A stretch of 27,522 nt of DNA from a virus. Below, piece after piece: positions 6,390-14,107 of this stretch. The number at the start of each line of letters is the position of its first letter. Position 1 is the first letter of the stretch. The stretch lies in the IMG/VR virus record IMGVR_UViG_3300030110_003152, positions 1 through 27,522 of that record, one strand, 5' to 3'. The notes beneath the pieces are model-generated. The model had not been told where the DNA came from, made no database searches, and saw nothing but the letters and a program-made list of their open reading frames with translations. The translations under genes were made by a program, and so were the position numbers.

Positions 6390-9300
6390 TCAATTAGAGA
6401 AGTTTTGACCGACGACGACTGCATAAAGTCCTGCGGTTGCTATATTTTCACCATCAAATGTGCGGTATGCAAAGATGTCTGATCTGCTTGCCGTAGTTGT
6501 TACACCCGGTAAGACTCCTCCACCTGGCCAATACACTGGAATTGATGTTCCCGCACCCGTCTGGAAGTGATCAACGACTGCATAGTGATTTCCAGTAGAA
6601 TCTTGATCGATTCTTAAGGTAAACTCAGATGATCCAGGAGGTGCATTATTTAAGATGAAGTGATTAACATCAGCACTTGCCGTGCAAATAAAGTTTTGTG
6701 CGGAGGAAAGATCAACCGTAACAACATTAGAACTTGGAGATACAATGTCTACATTTCTAGATAGAGTTTCTAATCTAGTGTGTCCAATGACATCCAAATT
6801 AGATCTAGCGTTTGTAGTTCCTACACCTACTGATCCAATACCAGATACAGTGAATATTTGACCATCAGCAGATATTCCAAGAGTATTTGAAGAACCAACT
6901 TGGAACGATTGTAGGACAAACGTTGAACCAATACCAATAGAGGACGCACGAATAACACCAGAAGTTAAGTTCTCCAAATGATATTGACCAAGGGCAGTCG
7001 TTCCGCCACTGATGAATACATCTTTAGAAGTAACAAATCCAACAAAACTTGCTTCGCCATTGACCAACATGGAAGTAGATCCCATGCCCACGTATCCAAC
7101 TTCAAGATAATGTCTTGGAACTGTAGTACCAAAACCAACATTTACAAGGTCTAATGGATAGATGCCAGTGCCAATTCCCTGTCCAACCTGCTTAAACAGT
7201 GTGTCAGTTTCAAGGTTAGTTAACCCACGTCCATCTCCAGTAAATGCTGCAGCAACAATTGATCCACTGAATGTTGACTCACCGATAACACGAAGCGCAA
7301 ATTCATTTGCCGTAGAACCGATACCAACTCCACCAGTACCGTCAACAGAGAATTGTGTGCTACCAGATCCAACAAGAAGTGTGCTATCACCATTTGTTGT
7401 AGTTCCAATTCCAACACCATCAAACATCATGGTATTAGAGTTTTTATTAAGACTTACTGCACCAAATCTCTTCCAGTCATTTTGAACAGAGTAAACCCAA
7501 CCAACGTAAGAACCTTCATCTGGGTTAGCATCAAAGATTACATCACCAGGGTTTCCTGCTTGCGTGGGAGTAGCAATTCCAACGCTATACTTTCTAGAAA
7601 CCGTAGCATCACCTTGAATAAAGAGGTTGTTAGTTTCAGAGTCTGCATTAACCGTGAATTTGTTATTAACGATCAGTGGTCCGTTAAACTCTGATGCTGA
7701 CTTATTATCATCACCACCTTCAACGCGAATCGAACGTCTAAACAGTCCCTCCGTAGCAGCAGTAATATTAAGTGACGGTGCCTTACTAATGTCCTCACCA
7801 GTAACAGTTTGAACAGGAGTATCAAAGATTTCTTCTTTACCCGTAATTGTGCTTAATTTTTTATTACCAGCAAAAGAGATACCTCTATCATTCATTCCAG
7901 TGTAGAAGTTAATACCACCATCTCTCTTCGTAGACTGTGATAATAATTCTTCAGATGCACTAATTGCTCTATCTTGCTTATCAGGGAACGCAGTAGAGTA
8001 GTTACCAGGACCAAATCCAACATACTCAAATGTATGTCCAGAAGCACGAATGATAGAGTGTCTACGAAGTTCTGTAGGAGATACTTCAACTTTTCTAACG
8101 ATCGTATCATCTATATGGGTCTTTCTATTAGTTCCAAGAGCACCCCTAAAGACAGTAAGTGAGTTATCAGAAGGAGCAACAGTTGTCTTAACTCTGACTA
8201 ATTCATCATCAATTTCCAGGTAGTCACCAATGTTGATATCAAGATTACCAAGATTAGTGATTGAAACTGTCTCAGATGTTGCATCATTAATTGCAGCACT
8301 TAACGTTGTAGTAATTCCTGCATATGGAGCAATCATTCTTCCAGAAAGATTTTCATTATCAACAGTAACATTACCATCGTTAGATGTAACACCCTCATTG
8401 AAAGCAAATAACGTTCCATTCACACCAGGTGCTACAGTTCCAACACCAAGTCTTACAGAGAAAGTTGTTAGACCAACATTTTCAGTAACAACAAAATCAC
8501 CAACATAAGTGCTATTTGTGGCACCAGAAAGTCTTACTTTTTGATCAACACTAAATCCATGATTGACTTCAGTTTTAACAGTAGCAATTCCACTAATATT
8601 ATCATAATTAATTGTGGAGACACCAACTGCCTCGCCAGTAAGGTAGAAATAAGATTTACCTGCGTTAGCAGCACCAATACCTGTTGTTGTAAATCCAGAT
8701 ATTGCGGATGGAGACTCAAACGTAAACGAACTTGCTGCTCCTACTTCAACATCAGTAATTCTAAAGACATCATTGTAAGCAGCATAAGATGCAGATGCAA
8801 CACCACTCATTCTAATTGTGTCACCAACATTATTATAGATGTTAGTTACATTAACCACCGCTTGAATATGTCCTGTTGTGGTTCCGACACCAACAACGGC
8901 AAGAGTATTACCGATACCATATGCACTACCACCGTTCATAATCTTAACGGCACTTATCTCACCGTTAGCATTAAAGGTGATTTTACCTGTAGCGTGCTTA
9001 CCCGTTACAGATGCACCAATAGAAACTAATCTGGCGTTATAAAGACTTCCAGCAGCACCTGAACCATATCCAAAACCACCACTTGAAATACCAACTGTAG
9101 TTACTCTATTGAGACCATGATCAATATTAGTGGTAACAGTATGAGAAGTTCCAACAATAGTTGATACAATATTTGTTACTCCAATACCAATACCAATATC
9201 ACGCACATACTTAGTGATGTTTTCTTTAGTTGCACTATTTTGTGGTTCATCAATTACAACTTCACCAATTAGACTTGGAATAGCAAATGAAGTTGACTCT

Positions 9301-12300
9301 GGAGGATCAGATATAGGTGTGTCTCTATTAGTTTGTGGGAAGAGAGCAGTAACTGGTTGAGAGAACTTATTGTTTGTAAAAGGAGAAACTGATGGACTGT
9401 TAGTAGCATTTAGCAGAGTGATGTAATAGATACCATCTTGCTCACCTGCCTTATACTGCTGTTGCTCAAAGTTTCTATAAACATACATCGTGTCTTTGAG
9501 TCTCTTTCTCTTAAAGTAAGGAAGAGAAGTGTTTCTAGTCGATGTATCGTTTGTAAATGTGCCAGGATTAGTGGTAAGACCAACTCTAAAGGTGGTTGAA
9601 CTGGTTATACCAGCAACTCTATAATCACGGTTAAATGATGTTCCAGCAGTTCCTGCTGTATTCAATGAACCAGTTATGTTTAAAAGTTCAACTTGATCGT
9701 CCTGCTGTAACTGGTGAGGAAGTTCGGTAGTAACATGAACCTCACTACCATCCCACCTAACATCTCGAATAAATCTAAAGTTCCTTTGTTGGTTTACATT
9801 ACTAATTGAACCACTTCCAAAGTAAGTTTGAATTTCAGTAGTGTTAATGCCAATAGAAGAGTTAGACTCTTGAATAATAAATCCTTCTGTAGGTGGTCTT
9901 GCTACGGTTCCACCAGCAGAGGCAGGAATAACATATCTTGCTCTGTAAAGAGTGTCATTAGAGTTTCTATTATCACTTTTTCTATTAATAAATGTTCTAG
10001 CAGATGCAGAACCAAGACCGGTTATTCCTAGACCAACGATTGTAGAGAAGATACTGTTTTCTGTAGCAGCTGTTGAAACATTTACATACCAGTGATCATT
10101 ATTAACGTCATACTGAACTGGGTGACCAATATCTCCAGAATTTTTATCAGATGCTCTACTAATTACATTTAACACACCACCTTTTTCATTAATAGCAATT
10201 GCATTACCATTAATTGCATCATTTAGTGTTTTTGCCAGTTTAATATTAACATTCGTTGTAATGCCACCAGATGTATTAGAATCGGTGATCGCAAAATATA
10301 CAGTATTAGGATCAAGTCCATCAGGGAGATGAGCATTTTCGCTAATAACTCTAACTGACTCACCATTAATTAGTTCATGGGTAGATCTTAAAGTAATTTG
10401 ACGATCAGATCCACCTTGACTATAAGATCCAATGCTATTAATTCCCGTTGGACCTTGTTTAATGGAGTATTTCTTTTGGGATGATAACTGTGATCCATCC
10501 ATCACAATTCTTGCTGAATACTCTGTAACAGAACCAGCAGATGAAACGAGAACTTTTAAAGTGTCATTCTCTCTTGCACCAAATCTAAATCCATCAATGA
10601 CATTTTCAGGTGGAGTGTCTTGATTTTTTTGATTAAAGAGATAAAGATTACCAGTTGAACCAACACCAGCAACTCTATCTGTTTTTGCAATATCGATTGC
10701 TCCAAACTCAATAGATGTTTCCGTTAATGGAATTTCTTTTGGTGGAATGATATGAGTGATGTACCCAACATCATCTTGTGAGAAAGCATCATTTCTAAAT
10801 CCTTCTGATGCAAGTGATACTGCACCGAAGTTGGAGTTAGAGTTGGTAAGTGAAATATCACCACCATTGTCAGTCACAAAATGTTCTGCATATCCAATCG
10901 CAAAGATTGAAACTGCCTGAATGAATGAATTATTTGTTACCTTAATATGAAAGTTTTTATAATCTGGTTTATATCGTGCTCTTGAATTACTAGGAAGATT
11001 ATCAACAGAGGTATAGTCATCATATGCACCAGTTGGAATCGTATCAGTGTTATATCTGACAAATGCCTTTTCATCTTTTTGCAGACCAATTCCAGTGAAT
11101 TGTGCAACAACCATTGATTTAAATCCGGTTGCTCTAGCACCATCTGCGAGCATTCCAGACATTCCATAAACAGAACGAAGTGAAATATTGAAGATATACG
11201 GTGATGCAGACGTTACAGTATCTGAAACAAGAGCAAGAGATGATCCAGACACTGATGGGAGAGCATCCGTTGGTGCATTTTGAACTGTATATTTAATTTG
11301 AGTTGAATTTACCTTTTCAGTAACAACAAAATCACCATTATAATCAGAGTTTACGTTCTCAATTCTAAATGGCGTATCAACATCAAGTCCAGTAACTGTT
11401 GAGCTTGTTGTGACGGTGACAACTGTGGTTGAAGTTGCACCATCACCTGCTCTAATACTACTGATACCAACAGAATCTCCAGTTGAACCAACGATACGAT
11501 ATTCATCAATCTTAGGTTGGATATCAATACTCGAAGATGGATAGTCTGGTTCAATAGCACGACCAGAGGATTGACCATATGCTATGCCTACTTTTTCATA
11601 ATACATTTGAAGGTCTGATCGACCTCCATCAAAATTAGTGATGAACTCATCATTGATTTTTACGTTGTTGAGACCATCAGCATATTCAAAACATCTCAGT
11701 TTGTGGTGAGAGAAGTTAGGAACGAATAAGTTTGAGTTGTAGTCTTTATAGACCTGTCCGTTAGGATCTCCATCAAAGAATGAAAACTGCCAGAAGTAAC
11801 AAGCACCAGTTACTCTAAAAACAGAAGATGCCTCAATATTTGCGTTTTCTGGGTCTGGAATATACTTTGGTCTAATTTTTGTTTTACGAAGATCAAGACC
11901 TACAAGTGATGTCCCTCTAGGAACAATAACTCCACCATGAACACTATTGAGTTTATGGAGTTGGTTGTCTGATGACGCTAAGTCGAAATTTGAAGATAAG
12001 TCAAATTGAGAAAGATTATCTGTAGTCGATCCGTTTCTTAATCTATAATTATTTGAACCATCTGGAATATATCCTGGTCTATTATCTACAACATGGTCAC
12101 CTGGATATAATAAGACTGTGGTCTTACCAAATCTATCATTGTCAAGACCTCTTTGATATGAAAATCTAGATGCTTCAATCAAAGCACGTTGAATCGTTTT
12201 GAAGGGACGAGTCAGTGAATTGCCCTTATTTTCTATGCTGTCTGTGGCGTCTAAACTATTCGGGTCAACGTAAAGAATAGTACCACGAGTAGATTTCAGA

Positions 12301-12326
12301 AAATTATCTAATCTGGAAAGACCCAT
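6390..12326 (-). CDS. Giant virion structural / tail-fibre protein (1978 aa)
   Basis: Very large structural protein, first gene after the small-gene block. Residues ~15-75 (ILYVDPNSLDATDS, then RPFKTIQRALIEASRF and TTVLLYPGDHVVDN) match the opening of pectate-lyase-like right-handed beta-helices, where a 'parallel measurement' strand is followed by a helix and P-G-x-Y-x strands. The middle is thousands of bases of beta-rich sequence, including a GGFGYGSGAAG...KIMNGGSAYGIGN unit near residues 1079-1132 that recurs in cyanophage structural proteins. From about residue 1600 it has VGIGTT and VGIGST fibre-shaft units. The last ~100 residues (FTLRIDQDSTG, PVYWPGGGVLPGVTTTASRSDIFAY, FDGENIATAGLYAVVVGQNF) are a cyanophage fibre C-terminal domain. 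No catalytic residues are identified. A late promoter lies at 12355-12362. It could be a long fibre, a baseplate fin or a collar-associated fibre. Confidence 0.75.
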   Translation of the reverse strand: MGLSRLDNFLKSTRGTILYVDPNSLDATDSIENKGNSLTRPFKTIQRALIEASRFSYQRGLDNDRFGKTTVLLYPGDHVVDNRPGYIPDGSNNYRLRNGSTTDNLSQFDLSSNFDLASSDNQLHKLNSVHGGVIVPRGTSLVGLDLRKTKIRPKYIPDPENANIEASSVFRVTGACYFWQFSFFDGDPNGQVYKDYNSNLFVPNFSHHKLRCFEYADGLNNVKINDEFITNFDGGRSDLQMYYEKVGIAYGQSSGRAIEPDYPSSSIDIQPKIDEYRIVGSTGDSVGISSIRAGDGATSTTVVTVTTSSTVTGLDVDTPFRIENVNSDYNGDFVVTEKVNSTQIKYTVQNAPTDALPSVSGSSLALVSDTVTSASPYIFNISLRSVYGMSGMLADGARATGFKSMVVAQFTGIGLQKDEKAFVRYNTDTIPTGAYDDYTSVDNLPSNSRARYKPDYKNFHIKVTNNSFIQAVSIFAIGYAEHFVTDNGGDISLTNSNSNFGAVSLASEGFRNDAFSQDDVGYITHIIPPKEIPLTETSIEFGAIDIAKTDRVAGVGSTGNLYLFNQKNQDTPPENVIDGFRFGARENDTLKVLVSSAGSVTEYSARIVMDGSQLSSQKKYSIKQGPTGINSIGSYSQGGSDRQITLRSTHELINGESVRVISENAHLPDGLDPNTVYFAITDSNTSGGITTNVNIKLAKTLNDAINGNAIAINEKGGVLNVISRASDKNSGDIGHPVQYDVNNDHWYVNVSTAATENSIFSTIVGLGITGLGSASARTFINRKSDNRNSNDTLYRARYVIPASAGGTVARPPTEGFIIQESNSSIGINTTEIQTYFGSGSISNVNQQRNFRFIRDVRWDGSEVHVTTELPHQLQQDDQVELLNITGSLNTAGTAGTSFNRDYRVAGITSSTTFRVGLTTNPGTFTNDTSTRNTSLPYFKRKRLKDTMYVYRNFEQQQYKAGEQDGIYYITLLNATNSPSVSPFTNNKFSQPVTALFPQTNRDTPISDPPESTSFAIPSLIGEVVIDEPQNSATKENITKYVRDIGIGIGVTNIVSTIVGTSHTVTTNIDHGLNRVTTVGISSGGFGYGSGAAGSLYNARLVSIGASVTGKHATGKITFNANGEISAVKIMNGGSAYGIGNTLAVVGVGTTTGHIQAVVNVTNIYNNVGDTIRMSGVASASYAAYNDVFRITDVEVGAASSFTFESPSAISGFTTTGIGAANAGKSYFYLTGEAVGVSTINYDNISGIATVKTEVNHGFSVDQKVRLSGATNSTYVGDFVVTENVGLTTFSVRLGVGTVAPGVNGTLFAFNEGVTSNDGNVTVDNENLSGRMIAPYAGITTTLSAAINDATSETVSITNLGNLDINIGDYLEIDDELVRVKTTVAPSDNSLTVFRGALGTNRKTHIDDTIVRKVEVSPTELRRHSIIRASGHTFEYVGFGPGNYSTAFPDKQDRAISASEELLSQSTKRDGGINFYTGMNDRGISFAGNKKLSTITGKEEIFDTPVQTVTGEDISKAPSLNITAATEGLFRRSIRVEGGDDNKSASEFNGPLIVNNKFTVNADSETNNLFIQGDATVSRKYSVGIATPTQAGNPGDVIFDANPDEGSYVGWVYSVQNDWKRFGAVSLNKNSNTMMFDGVGIGTTTNGDSTLLVGSGSTQFSVDGTGGVGIGSTANEFALRVIGESTFSGSIVAAAFTGDGRGLTNLETDTLFKQVGQGIGTGIYPLDLVNVGFGTTVPRHYLEVGYVGMGSTSMLVNGEASFVGFVTSKDVFISGGTTALGQYHLENLTSGVIRASSIGIGSTFVLQSFQVGSSNTLGISADGQIFTVSGIGSVGVGTTNARSNLDVIGHTRLETLSRNVDIVSPSSNVVTVDLSSAQNFICTASADVNHFILNNAPPGSSEFTLRIDQDSTGNHYAVVDHFQTGAGTSIPVYWPGGGVLPGVTTTASRSDIFAYRTFDGENIATAGLYAVVVGQNFSN

Positions 12327-12354: not shown

Positions 12355-12362
12355 TATTTATC
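12355..12362 (-). promoter_or_regulatory. Late promoter element GATAAATA
   Basis: The minus strand reads GATAAATA about 30 nt before the ATG of the 1978-aa gene and just downstream of the terminator hairpin. The same octamer occurs at 21051-21058 before the other giant gene. Its placement suggests that late transcription is re-started here after the early block ends. Confidence 0.55.
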
Positions 12363-12366
12363 ATAA

Positions 12367-12400
12367 GAAAAAAGGGCAACCCAAAACGGGTTACCCTTTT
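12367..12400 (-). terminator. Intrinsic terminator ending the small-gene block
   Basis: On the minus strand GGGTAACCC, a GTTTT loop and GGGTTGCCC form a nine-pair stem with one G-T wobble. It can be extended by A-T pairs and runs directly into a stretch of six or more T. The plus strand can form the same hairpin but has only four T after it, so the minus direction is the better terminator. It lies 26 nt beyond the stop of the last small ORF and just before a late promoter. Confidence 0.8.
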
Positions 12401-12425
12401 CGCACTTCCTTCACACCTTTATATA

Positions 12426-12596
12426 TTAGTCTTCTTTTAATTCGTTGTCAAGTATATATTCAACTGTATTCGCAACATCATTCATTGCATCACGCAATTC
12501 TTTTTGAGTTCCAGTATGCTGAGACATAAGTCCAGTTTCAGTAAGAGACCATCGCCACTGATTCATTTTTTCGTTACGCCACAAATTAATAATCAT
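12426..12596 (-). CDS. Small hypothetical protein (56 aa)
   Basis: Short ORF beginning MIINLWRNEKMNQWRWSLTE and ending VEYILDNELKED. The product is soluble, with three Trp in the first 16 residues and an amphipathic, acidic C-terminal helix (LRDAMNDVANTVEYILDNELKED). The ATG is 3 nt after the TAA of the upstream 90-aa gene, so translation is probably coupled, and the stop is followed by the terminator hairpin. The family is not recognised. The Trp-rich start and helical tail suggest a small folded host-takeover or regulatory protein of the sort common in early T4-like regions, but that is a guess from context. Confidence 0.6.
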   Translation of the reverse strand: MIINLWRNEKMNQWRWSLTETGLMSQHTGTQKELRDAMNDVANTVEYILDNELKED

Positions 12597-12599
12597 TCT

Positions 12600-12872
12600 T
12601 TAATCTACAGGTAAAAGTTCTGGATTTTCCAATTCTAACTCAAAACACATGGGATGACATTCTTCTGCCATCAAATACATTGAAGATTGATACATCTTCT
12701 CAGCATTCCATCGTGGACCTGAGTTAGCTAGTTGTATAACACTTGGATTTGCTCTAGCAAGTTCTGGGAGTTCATCAAAGGTAAATGGTATATTTTGAAT
12801 ACAATACAACATTACCAAGTGATCTCCCTCATGATCATACCAAGCATATTTCGTGTCTATGCGGTATTTCAT
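12600..12872 (-). CDS. Small hypothetical protein (90 aa)
   Basis: The product begins MKYRIDTKYAWYDHEGDHLV and ends in the acidic tail FELELENPELLPVD. It is rich in aromatics, Met and His, with no membrane span and no recognised motif; two Cys (one near residue 21, one at about residue 76) are not arranged as a metal site. The ATG is the only reasonable start. A GAGGG lies about 12 nt upstream, farther than ideal, and a CCTAAATA element lies at 12895-12902. It follows the tRNA and precedes the 56-aa ORF by 3 nt. Function unknown; probably an early, non-structural phage protein from its place in the block. Confidence 0.65.
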   Translation of the reverse strand: MKYRIDTKYAWYDHEGDHLVMLYCIQNIPFTFDELPELARANPSVIQLANSGPRWNAEKMYQSSMYLMAEECHPMCFELELENPELLPVD

Positions 12873-12894
12873 GGGTTTAAATTTACCCTCAAAA

Positions 12895-12902
12895 TATTTA
12901 GG
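12895..12902 (-). promoter_or_regulatory. Possible late-type element CCTAAATA upstream of the 90-aa gene
   Basis: CCTAAATA on the minus strand lies between the tRNA and the 90-aa ATG and shares the TAAATA core of the other late elements. It might let the last two small genes be expressed late as well as early. AT-rich spacers can contain this core by chance, so it is weakly supported. Confidence 0.3.
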
Positions 12903-12906
12903 GAAA

Positions 12907-12991
12907 TGCGAGTAGGGAGACTTGAACTCCCACGAGCATAATGCCCAACAGATTTTAAGTCTGGTGCGTCTACCGATTCCGCCATACTCGC
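12907..12991 (-). tRNA. tRNA-Leu (UAA anticodon)
   Basis: The 85-nt minus-strand sequence folds as a class II tRNA. The acceptor stem pairs GCGAGTA with TACTCGC. The D-arm region reads GGCGGAATCGGTAGACGC. The anticodon stem CAGA/TCTG closes the loop CTTAAAA, giving anticodon TAA. A long variable arm follows (TGGGCATTATGCTCG), then a T-arm with GGGAG, TTCAAGT and CTCCC. The discriminator base is A and no CCA is encoded. It would read UUA (and UUG) Leu codons, useful for an AT-rich phage in a host with different codon use. It lies inside the small-gene block and would be processed from that transcript. Confidence 0.95.
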
Positions 12992-12997
12992 AATAAA

Positions 12998-13168
12998 TCA
13001 GGTAATTAAGTTACCATTCATATCATGAGTTACTGGGTGAAGACTACAATATTCATTAAAAGTGATTTTCATCTCTTTATCAGTCAATCCTGCGTTTCGT
13101 GCTGCTTTTGGGATATTCCACTTTGCCACGAATAACATTTCCATAGACTGTCGGGTTTCTGGTCTCAT
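12998..13168 (-). CDS. Small hypothetical protein with helical HTH-like pattern (56 aa)
   Basis: The protein starts MRPETRQSMEMLFVAKWNIP and continues KAARNAGLTDKEMKITFNEY. It reads as real protein: an N-terminal helix, then KAARNAGLTDKEMKITFNEYC, which has the A-x3-G-L-T spacing of a helix-turn-helix. I have the impression that cyanophages carry similar short MRPETR proteins near tRNA genes, but this is from memory. The ATG lies inside the 3' half of the preceding ORF (89-nt overlap, +1 relative frame) and has no Shine-Dalgarno, so it would depend on coupling or on a frameshift from that ORF. The stop is 7 nt from the tRNA 5' end. Confidence 0.6.
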   Translation of the reverse strand: MRPETRQSMEMLFVAKWNIPKAARNAGLTDKEMKITFNEYCSLHPVTHDMNGNLIT

Positions 13169-13259
13169 AATTGTTGCAAATTAAAATTTCTTTGTAAAAC
13201 CCCTCAGGGTAAATTTTTGCCGGAATTTTTTCTCCGCTTTTATAGGAATTAAAGGTCAT
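13080..13259 (-). CDS. Small hypothetical protein (59 aa) overlapping the next ORF
   Basis: Starts MTFNSYKSGEKIPAKIYPEG. The first ~30 residues look protein-like (IYPEGFYKEILICNNYE); the last ~30 (TRNPTVYGNVIRGKVEYPK...KRRID) lie over the 56-aa ORF in another frame and look less constrained. The start is strongly supported: GAGG at 13264-13267 overlaps the TGA of the upstream gene and is 4 nt from the ATG. Either a short protein overlaps the next gene, or ribosomes shift +1 near its middle to join the two, or the frame was broken by a mutation or sequencing error. No function recognised. Confidence 0.45.
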   Translation of the reverse strand: MTFNSYKSGEKIPAKIYPEGFYKEILICNNYETRNPTVYGNVIRGKVEYPKSSTKRRID

Positions 13260-13263
13260 TTTT

Positions 13264-13267
13264 CCTC
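13264..13267 (-). promoter_or_regulatory. Shine-Dalgarno GAGG for the 59-aa ORF
   Basis: The minus strand reads TGAGGAAAAATG: the stop codon of the 60-aa gene is part of the ribosome site, and the ATG follows after four A. It is the best ribosome site in the small-gene block and is the main reason for accepting the ORF starting at 13259. Confidence 0.6.
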
Positions 13268-13448
13268 ACAGAGGACTAGCATACGCAAGTGTGTCTTCAT
13301 CAAGCACTGCACGGCACAATTCCAACACACTCATGAACTGGTCTACGGTTTCACAATCAAGAACCTTCTCGTCACCCTGCTCAGAGTACAGGTAGAACTT
13401 GCGCTTAACAGGGTCCACGACGCAGCGTGTGAGGTAGTCGTCTTGCAT
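13266..13448 (-). CDS. Small conserved-looking hypothetical protein (60 aa)
   Basis: First gene after the consensus early promoter. The product begins MQDDYLTRCVVDPVKRKFYL and ends DEDTLAYASPL. It is acidic and soluble, with an N-terminal beta-hairpin pattern (RCVVDP..RKFYLYSEQGDEKVLDC) and a C-terminal helix (VDQFMSVLELCRAVLDEDTL). I recall similar short proteins in cyanomyovirus genomes, always unassigned. By hand count its DNA is about 50% G+C, against roughly 33-40% in flanking stretches, which suggests different codon pressure or recent transfer. The ribosome site is weak, with the ATG about 17 nt from the predicted transcript start. Likely an abundant early protein, role unknown. Confidence 0.7.
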   Translation of the reverse strand: MQDDYLTRCVVDPVKRKFYLYSEQGDEKVLDCETVDQFMSVLELCRAVLDEDTLAYASPL

Positions 13449-13471
13449 GGGGGTCGTTTGATTACCTACGT

Positions 13472-13500
13472 ATTATAGCGCAGTCAGGACTCCTTGTCAA
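13472..13500 (-). promoter_or_regulatory. Consensus sigma-70 early promoter
   Basis: The minus strand has TTGACA (13495-13500), a 17-nt spacer and TATAAT (13472-13477): both hexamers are perfect and the spacing is ideal. Transcription would start near 13465, about 17 nt before the ATG at 13448. The -35 lies inside the last codons of the 207-aa virion gene (Val-Asp-Lys), and the spacer contains its TGA stop. Host RNA polymerase should read it without phage factors, so the downstream small genes and tRNA are probably made immediately on infection. Confidence 0.9.
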
Positions 13501-14107
13501 CCCCTGGTTCTACCTCAAGACGAGGAATGTCTTTTCTTGTGGCATAAATGTGATAAAAACAATCAATGGGCATCCCACCTTTTGATTGTAGATATACTTT
13601 ATTCTCATCAAATCTTTTCACGATCACATTTTGATGAGCACCAATTGGAGTCAAATTAACCGTAATCGTGGTCCAATCAACCAATCCTTCCCAATAATCT
13701 GGAAAAGAAATCTCTTCTCTATTTTTTACTCTCCCACGAATATACACACCAAACTCTGGTCCCTCTAAACATCCATGAATAAGTCTTCTATTATCCTTTG
13801 TGGGATGAGAGATATTAAATGTTTTTGAGGAAAAAGAACCAGTGCTTCCAGATACAGTTCCACTACAAGAAATATTGACGCCACCAGCAATATTCCCACC
13901 CATAGTGAGATCCTCAAGGATTTTAAAATTATCAATCTTTGCTCTTGAGTGGTATTTTGGAGGACAAATATCATTAGGATACTCATCCTCGGCAGGAAGG
14001 ATAGTTTTAACAATATAAGAATCTAAAGTTGACCCGCTCCCGTATGCAGCTCTATCTGTGCAGTCCTTATCTGGTGCTGTACCAGGGATAAATTCTCCAG
14101 CTGACAT
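13484..14107 (-). CDS. Virion structural protein with HPTK...LEGPE domain (207 aa)
   Basis: Shares its C-terminal domain with the 282-aa neighbour. Residues ~1-75 form a variable head, residues ~65-95 a Gly/Ser-rich repeat stretch (GGNIAGGVNISCSGTVSGS), and residues ~95-200 the common domain: FNISHPTKDNRRLIHGCLEGPEFGVYIRGR, then FPDYWEGLVD, TITVNLTPIG and a final beta strand. The motif HPxKxxxRLxHxCxEGPExxVYxRG recurs near the C-termini of marine phage and bacterial surface proteins, so it is probably a fibre-tip or fibre-cap fold. No catalytic residues are clear. The start overlaps the upstream stop by one base (TAATG). The 3' end contains the -35 of the early promoter, which may limit sequence change there. 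Confidence 0.7.
   Translation of the reverse strand: MSAGEFIPGTAPDKDCTDRAAYGSGSTLDSYIVKTILPAEDEYPNDICPPKYHSRAKIDNFKILEDLTMGGNIAGGVNISCSGTVSGSTGSFSSKTFNISHPTKDNRRLIHGCLEGPEFGVYIRGRVKNREEISFPDYWEGLVDWTTITVNLTPIGAHQNVIVKRFDENKVYLQSKGGMPIDCFYHIYATRKDIPRLEVEPGVDKES

Follow-up and report, generated by a model that had tools for sequence, protein, structure and literature searches.

What does a T4-like cyanophage keep in a host-type transcription unit lodged among its virion genes, and what might the RNA made at the end of that unit do? The question is raised by positions 12,367 to 13,500 of the 27,522-nucleotide (nt) stretch of viral DNA analysed here, referred to as the window (IMG/VR record IMGVR_UViG_3300030110_003152). 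This 27.5-kb fragment belongs to a T4-like cyanophage (Kyanoviridae), with Synechococcus phages Bellamy and S-SM2 as its nearest relatives in the interval, and carries its late virion genes on the minus strand. A preliminary description had taken the interval for a closed unit with one promoter and one terminator. This had to be revised: a second sigma-70 promoter, P2, adjoins the terminator and would give rise to a separate RNA of ~50 nt (Table 1), whose 5' arm is complementary to the anticodon region of a host tRNA, tRNA-Val(CAC). The interval is best explained as an early, exchangeable cassette within the late genes, ending in a small RNA gene.

The predicted small RNA and its match to tRNA-Val(CAC)

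P2 lies ~25 nt upstream of the terminator stem, and the alignment of sequences preceding the fiber gene reveals a conserved block, GTGTGAAGGAAGTGCG, in between. The RNA is predicted to fold into a free 16-nt 5' arm followed by the terminator hairpin. A promoter-like site was found upstream of the core of the block in 88 of 123 units, as against 27 of 369 displaced windows. When units were seeded on the -10 element and the block, with no terminator required, a terminator was present within 70 nt in 50 of 59, and 53 of the same 59 had an extended -10 or a -35 of at least 4/6. The ordered succession of core, T-run and late promoter is present in at least 119 contig stretches of IMG/VR, with no occurrence for a scrambled core or for the sense orientation; the bare 15-mer of the core is uninformative, its match count in IMG/VR being close to what a collection this large would yield by chance. 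The terminator stem covaries in the alignment used, which comprised class A only (8 double-change cells; 0/500 shuffles). No Rfam family matches the window's small RNA or the block. A tiny leader open reading frame (ORF; GTG...) in the small RNA was considered and rejected, its frame and length varying across alignments. Part of the units have a late-type promoter (TATAAATA/CTAAATA) in place of TATAAT ahead of the antisense block; judging from this motif, the RNA may be made late in these phages.

The exact complement of the 12-nt core has one match each in five of seven picocyanobacterial genomes, and all five are tRNA-Val(CAC). In the window, the block is a perfect 16-nt antisense to CGCACUUCCUUCACAC, covering the anticodon loop together with the 5' strand of the anticodon stem; the runner-up among the 41 tRNAs of WH7803, our comparison set, reaches 8 nt. 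The same tRNA gave the best match in all 127 unique units seeded on parts of the core, over 12-20 nt. It also came out best in 43 of 46 units of a fiber-anchored set, which is unbiased in that it was assembled without seeding on the antisense block and which comprises 40 dereplicated units. A specificity scan of 103 loci yielded antisense matches to tRNA-Val(CAC) alone (42 loci), all other host-tRNA matches of at least 13 nt being sense tRNA genes.

In the fiber-anchored set, 100% of the 40 units complement tRNA positions 33-37 (the anticodon CAC plus AC); for the anticodon stem the proportion is ~40-80%, and for the remainder of the tRNA it is mostly <25%. Other phages carry antisense to the whole anticodon hairpin (CUUCCGUGUGAAGGAAG) or to its 3' side (CCCUUCCGUGUGAA), and in some there are antisense traces to the 5' half/D arm or to the acceptor and T arm. 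All variants have only the anticodon-loop complement in common; in one of them, stem pairing is broken and the anticodon complement retained. That this complement is kept in 40/40 units while its flanks vary suggests that selection acts upon it. Dimer formation between the window RNA and tRNA-Val(CAC) is predicted to gain -16.7 kcal/mol, and the other antisense variants tested have predicted gains of 12.9-21.9 kcal/mol. The tRNA is present in the Synechococcus and Cyanobium genomes searched and in some Prochlorococcus. Searches of four further Prochlorococcus genomes did not find it, and we infer that phages of such hosts would therefore have no target.

The unit is not confined to one site. 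It is located upstream of the fiber gene, immediately downstream of the capsid gene g23 (a unit matched by 157 named cyanophage records) and, in phage S-SKS1, within a tRNA cluster, behind a perfect promoter. Carriers include S-RIM2, S-RIM8, S-CAM8, ACG-2014a and Bellamy; the exact 12-mer core was not found in phage P-HM2. In an unbiased capsid-gene set, the unit was found in 2 of 72 loci; most relatives of that query lack it, and it is frequent in named cyanophages. Capsid loci devoid of the block retain the terminator and the late promoter, and 0/70 have a 6/6 TATAAT or an extended -10. The presence of the antisense at the fiber site is linked to that of tRNA genes in the cassette (36/37 with vs 1/23 without), and the loci lacking the antisense have a lower G+C content.

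Proposed effect on the host and competing explanations

GUG amounts to 4.4 per thousand codons in the window phage (6% of valine codons) as compared to 36.0 in WH7803 (53%). The phage carriers examined do not encode tRNA-Val(CAC) but do encode tRNA-Val(UAC), which is able to decode GUG by wobble. From P2, the complementarity, the terminator and their conservation, all read in the DNA itself, we infer that the RNA is expressed and acts on the tRNA, and we think it probable, though by no means certain, that it disables host tRNA-Val(CAC). One could picture the following course of events. Host RNA polymerase would transcribe the ~50-nt RNA early in infection. Its single-stranded 5' end (in other phages, a loop GUGUGAA) would base-pair to the anticodon loop of tRNA-Val(CAC), then invade the anticodon stem and remove the tRNA from use by blocking codon reading and recognition by valyl-tRNA synthetase, and/or through cleavage of the duplex. 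Translation of GUG-rich host mRNAs would slow, and phage mRNAs would be spared as they avoid GUG and could use tRNA-Val(UAC). With the same cassettes providing tRNAs for phage-preferred codons (Leu-UAA, Thr-UGU), the tRNA pool would be reshaped.

It is known that phages carry tRNAs of their own and that they trigger, or withstand, the cleavage of tRNAs. The wider proposal, which we consider evenly poised, is that T4-like cyanophages possess a family of small antisense RNA genes directed against the anticodon arm of tRNA-Val(CAC), which turn off GUG decoding to weaken host translation codon by codon while tRNAs for phage codons come from the cassette, in what would be a remodelling of the host tRNA pool by RNA. 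If tRNA-Val(CAC) is indeed disabled, codon-specific host shut-off would be encoded in merely ~50 nt. The arrangement also bears on the old question of the purpose of phage tRNA genes, as tRNA supply and tRNA removal would be combined in one cassette. We know of no earlier description of a phage RNA gene antisense to a host anticodon, and none was found in Rfam or in the open-access literature searched.

Several observations weigh against a role of the RNA in disabling the tRNA. GUG is not the most host-biased codon: CGG, CGC and CTG are even more so, and the cassette site yielded no antisense to the corresponding tRNAs. The -10 of P2 in the window is TAATAT rather than TATAAT, and 35 of the 123 units have no recognised promoter near the core, several of them with a -10-like site further upstream. 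Pairing energies were computed with unmodified tRNA; for hosts besides WH7803, the search was limited to short patterns and tRNA-Val(CAC). Finally, the loci share kinship, and counts are thus not independent and percentages descriptive only.

The main functional rival inverts the proposed effect: by covering the anticodon loop, the antisense RNA would protect tRNA-Val(CAC) from a host anticodon nuclease fired as a phage defence. Conservation is centred on this loop, where anticodon nucleases cut, and expression ahead of the late genes would suit the purpose. Defences that deplete tRNAs, and phage countermeasures to them, have been proposed (PMC10264068). However, saving tRNA-Val(CAC) seems of little use to a phage that barely uses GUG, the more so as the examined carriers encode tRNA-Val(UAC), and we regard protection as rather unlikely. 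To our knowledge, no nuclease specific for tRNA-Val(CAC) is known in Synechococcus. A different view would place the function at the DNA level, the block having been left behind by integrative elements that attach at the tRNA-Val(CAC) gene, or serving them as a target, and the RNA being incidental. Synechococcus RCC307 does contain (623876-623921) a partial 3' copy of this gene (positions 27-72, 98%) such as integrative elements leave, and some phage variants resemble the 3' half of the tRNA. Yet most units match 12-20 nt around the anticodon, many just 16-20 nt, and lack the identity across the 3' part of the tRNA that would rebuild the gene; the variant that has lost stem pairing keeps precisely the anticodon complement. 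Moreover, orientation is fixed relative to promoter and terminator, with no match in the sense orientation, and promoter and core were gained together. An attachment site may be the origin of the block, but it leaves orientation, promoter and anticodon-centred conservation unexplained, and as an account of the unit we consider it improbable.

A tRNA-complementary leader directly before an intrinsic terminator also evokes a cis-acting device, in which P2, antisense and terminator would form a tRNA-sensing, T-box-like attenuator of read-through into the next gene. This appears very improbable: the 5' arm folds separately, the leader has no element that would compete with the terminator stem, the downstream genes differ from place to place and start from their own late promoter, and the Rfam search gave no T-box match. 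Lastly, the unit might be nothing but a mobile promoter/terminator module that insulates early from late transcription, the core having some other role such as protein binding or pairing with the host RNA Yfr1. In T4-like phages, promoter-plus-stem-loop (PeSL) modules bring about shuffling (Arbiol 2010 and Comeau 2014, as cited in PMC4503421). PeSL cassettes resemble the unit in combining a strong early promoter and a terminator hairpin in T4-like exchange regions; the difference is that, in the present unit, the stretch transcribed between these two elements is conserved and forms an antisense to a single host tRNA. The unit has the promoter and the terminator stem-loop of such modules but not their recombining within-genome repeats: the core mostly occurs once, and at most twice, per named genome, for which reason a dispersed repeat inside one genome was also rejected. 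Pairing between the core and the Yfr1 motif is possible with two bulges, but shuffle tests of it are weak (median p 0.09), and a mere module leaves both the perfect 12-20-nt tRNA match and the anticodon-centred positional conservation unexplained. We judge it an unlikely explanation.

An action as Yfr1 sponge or Yfr2 mimic (PMC2190773, PMC2518516, PMC6778093) was likewise considered and, in view of the two bulges and the weak shuffle statistics, dropped after the perfect tRNA match. The Yfr2/Cyano-1 RNA (RF01701), a partner of Yfr1, has a 5' motif, GUGUGAGGAGUGC, that resembles the phage core GUGUGAAGGAAGUGC; its structure is different, however, its covariance model gave no match to the phage RNA, and the Yfr1 match of the core needs bulges where the tRNA match is perfect. 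As a side observation, this motif of WH7803 Yfr2 resembles antisense both to the tRNA-Val(CAC) anticodon loop and to Yfr1, possibly by coincidence.

Disablement of tRNA-Val(CAC) by an antisense RNA would find partial parallels elsewhere. The CreT component of CreTA, a host-encoded, CRISPR-associated small RNA, also removes one tRNA species from use; it acts on tRNA-Arg(UCU) through codons, whereas the phage RNA is directly antisense to an anticodon arm. Sueoka and co-workers reportedly observed loss of a host tRNA-Leu (CUG) after T2/T4 infection, which they described as tRNA cleavage or modification. There too, a T-even phage removes a host tRNA for a host-favoured G-ending codon; the predicted agent in our case is an antisense RNA. 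Cyanophage S-PM2 makes an antisense RNA of ~225 nt, CfrI, in cis-antisense to psbA and a homing endonuclease gene (PMC2984593). CfrI and the window RNA are both antisense RNAs of T4-like cyanophages, one expressed and the other predicted, but the target of CfrI is not a tRNA, unlike that of the ~50-nt window RNA, which matches tRNA-Val(CAC).

The cassette and its exchange among relatives

Much of the frame that the preliminary description had given the cassette was borne out, including the consensus promoter P1 with its -35 embedded in a structural gene, the tRNA-Leu gene, the terminator and the late promoter beyond it (Table 1). P1 is the sole 12/12 sigma-70 site in 10 kb. A site of at least 10/12 is located 49-94 nt upstream of the first ORF, nearly always at ~-52, in 73 of 89 related loci, and P1 is therefore beyond chance. 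That the cassette is expressed early is predicted from the type of its promoter alone. The motif NATAAATA is the published late promoter of cyanophages (PMC2984593).

Table 1. Features of the cassette and its flanks, in window positions
Feature	Position	Strand	Basis or remark
Structural gene, upstream cassette edge	13484..14107	-	phrog_28536; homologs in relatives
P1, host-type early promoter, TTGACA-17-TATAAT	13472..13500	-	12/12 consensus; -35 inside end of upstream structural gene; conserved in related loci
o1, 60 aa, always first gene past P1	13266..13448	-	DUF7294 (PF23966, phrog_662); third-position substitution bias 150/120/510
o2, 59-aa ORF, probably no gene	13080..13259	-	no family, no third-position bias, overlaps o3
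o3, 56 aa	12998..13168	-	phrog_1308 (T4-GC 160 in S-SM2 and Syn19); third-position bias
tRNA-Leu(UAA) gene	12906..12992	-	ARAGORN; Rfam tRNA
o4, 90 aa	12600..12872	-	phrog_4134; third-position bias
o5, 56 aa	12426..12596	-	phrog_2818; third-position bias; 3' end holds P2 -35
P2, second sigma-70 promoter, TTGACA-17-TAATAT	12423..12451	-	alignment of sequence upstream of fiber gene
Predicted antisense small RNA, ~50 nt	12368..12417	-	unpaired 5' antisense arm and terminator hairpin; fold and dimer predictions
Antisense core GUGUGAAGGAAGUGCG	12401..12416	-	perfect 16-nt complement of host tRNA-Val(CAC) CGCACUUCCUUCACAC
Intrinsic terminator, common to cassette and small RNA	12368..12400	-	13-bp hairpin + T6; covarying stem
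Late-type promoter GATAAATA, upstream of fiber ATG (12326)	12355..12362	-	sequence match
Tail fiber gene, downstream cassette edge	6390..12326	-	phrog_529

Five short ORFs had been counted in the cassette. Four of these, o1, o3, o4 and o5, behave as genes by their substitution patterns; the fifth, o2, is probably spurious, and we rejected it as a gene because it lacks codon-position bias and a family match and overlaps the conserved o3 out of frame. The PHROGs matched by o3, o4 and o5 have no assigned function, and an NCBIfam search of the cassette ORFs gave nothing convincing.

The claim that the interval is an exchange hotspot proved right in outline. In a survey of 80 IMG/VR loci anchored on the fiber N-terminus and 23 stretches from named cyanophages, the o1-to-fiber interval ranges from ~240-310 nt (o1 alone) up to 3.7 kb, with the fiber gene as downstream edge in every locus. 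The window's five ORFs do not recur identically in all relatives, although a backbone of o1-o3-tRNA-Leu-o4-(tRNA-Thr)-o5 is common to many loci and syntenic in the close ones. Between the conserved flanking virion genes, the variable cargo comprises HNH and GIY-type (NUMOD3) endonucleases, a Mom-family protein, 2OG-Fe(II) oxygenases, CpeT, denV, a Phd-like antitoxin and varying tRNAs, as befits an exchange cassette. In its minimal form the site keeps o1 alone; having remained after the loss of all other content, o1 may be the core gene of the cassette.

Islands of early or host genes are a known kind of element in T4-like cyanophages (PMC3037559, PMC2984593). Like the hyperplastic regions or mobile gene cassettes described in these phages (Millard 2009; Sullivan 2010, PMC3037559), the present cassette has accessory genes and tRNAs that vary between conserved virion genes. 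It differs from them in its site, before the fiber gene, in its fixed frame, running from P1-o1 to the terminator and late promoter, and in the antisense RNA at its end.

Some of the cargo deserves separate mention. In several loci the cassette has taken up genes resembling HNH and GIY-type (NUMOD3) homing endonucleases, a plausible motor of exchange at this site. A frequent plug-in, present in 17 loci, is the Mom-family protein (PF25680, of DNA-modification type), which may shield phage DNA against restriction. The S-SKS1 cassette has, after o1, a 57-amino-acid ORF for a Phd/YefM-like antitoxin, without evident toxin. In one locus, a tail-fibre-like ORF lies within the cassette where the antisense unit would sit, and virion genes therefore enter this site too.

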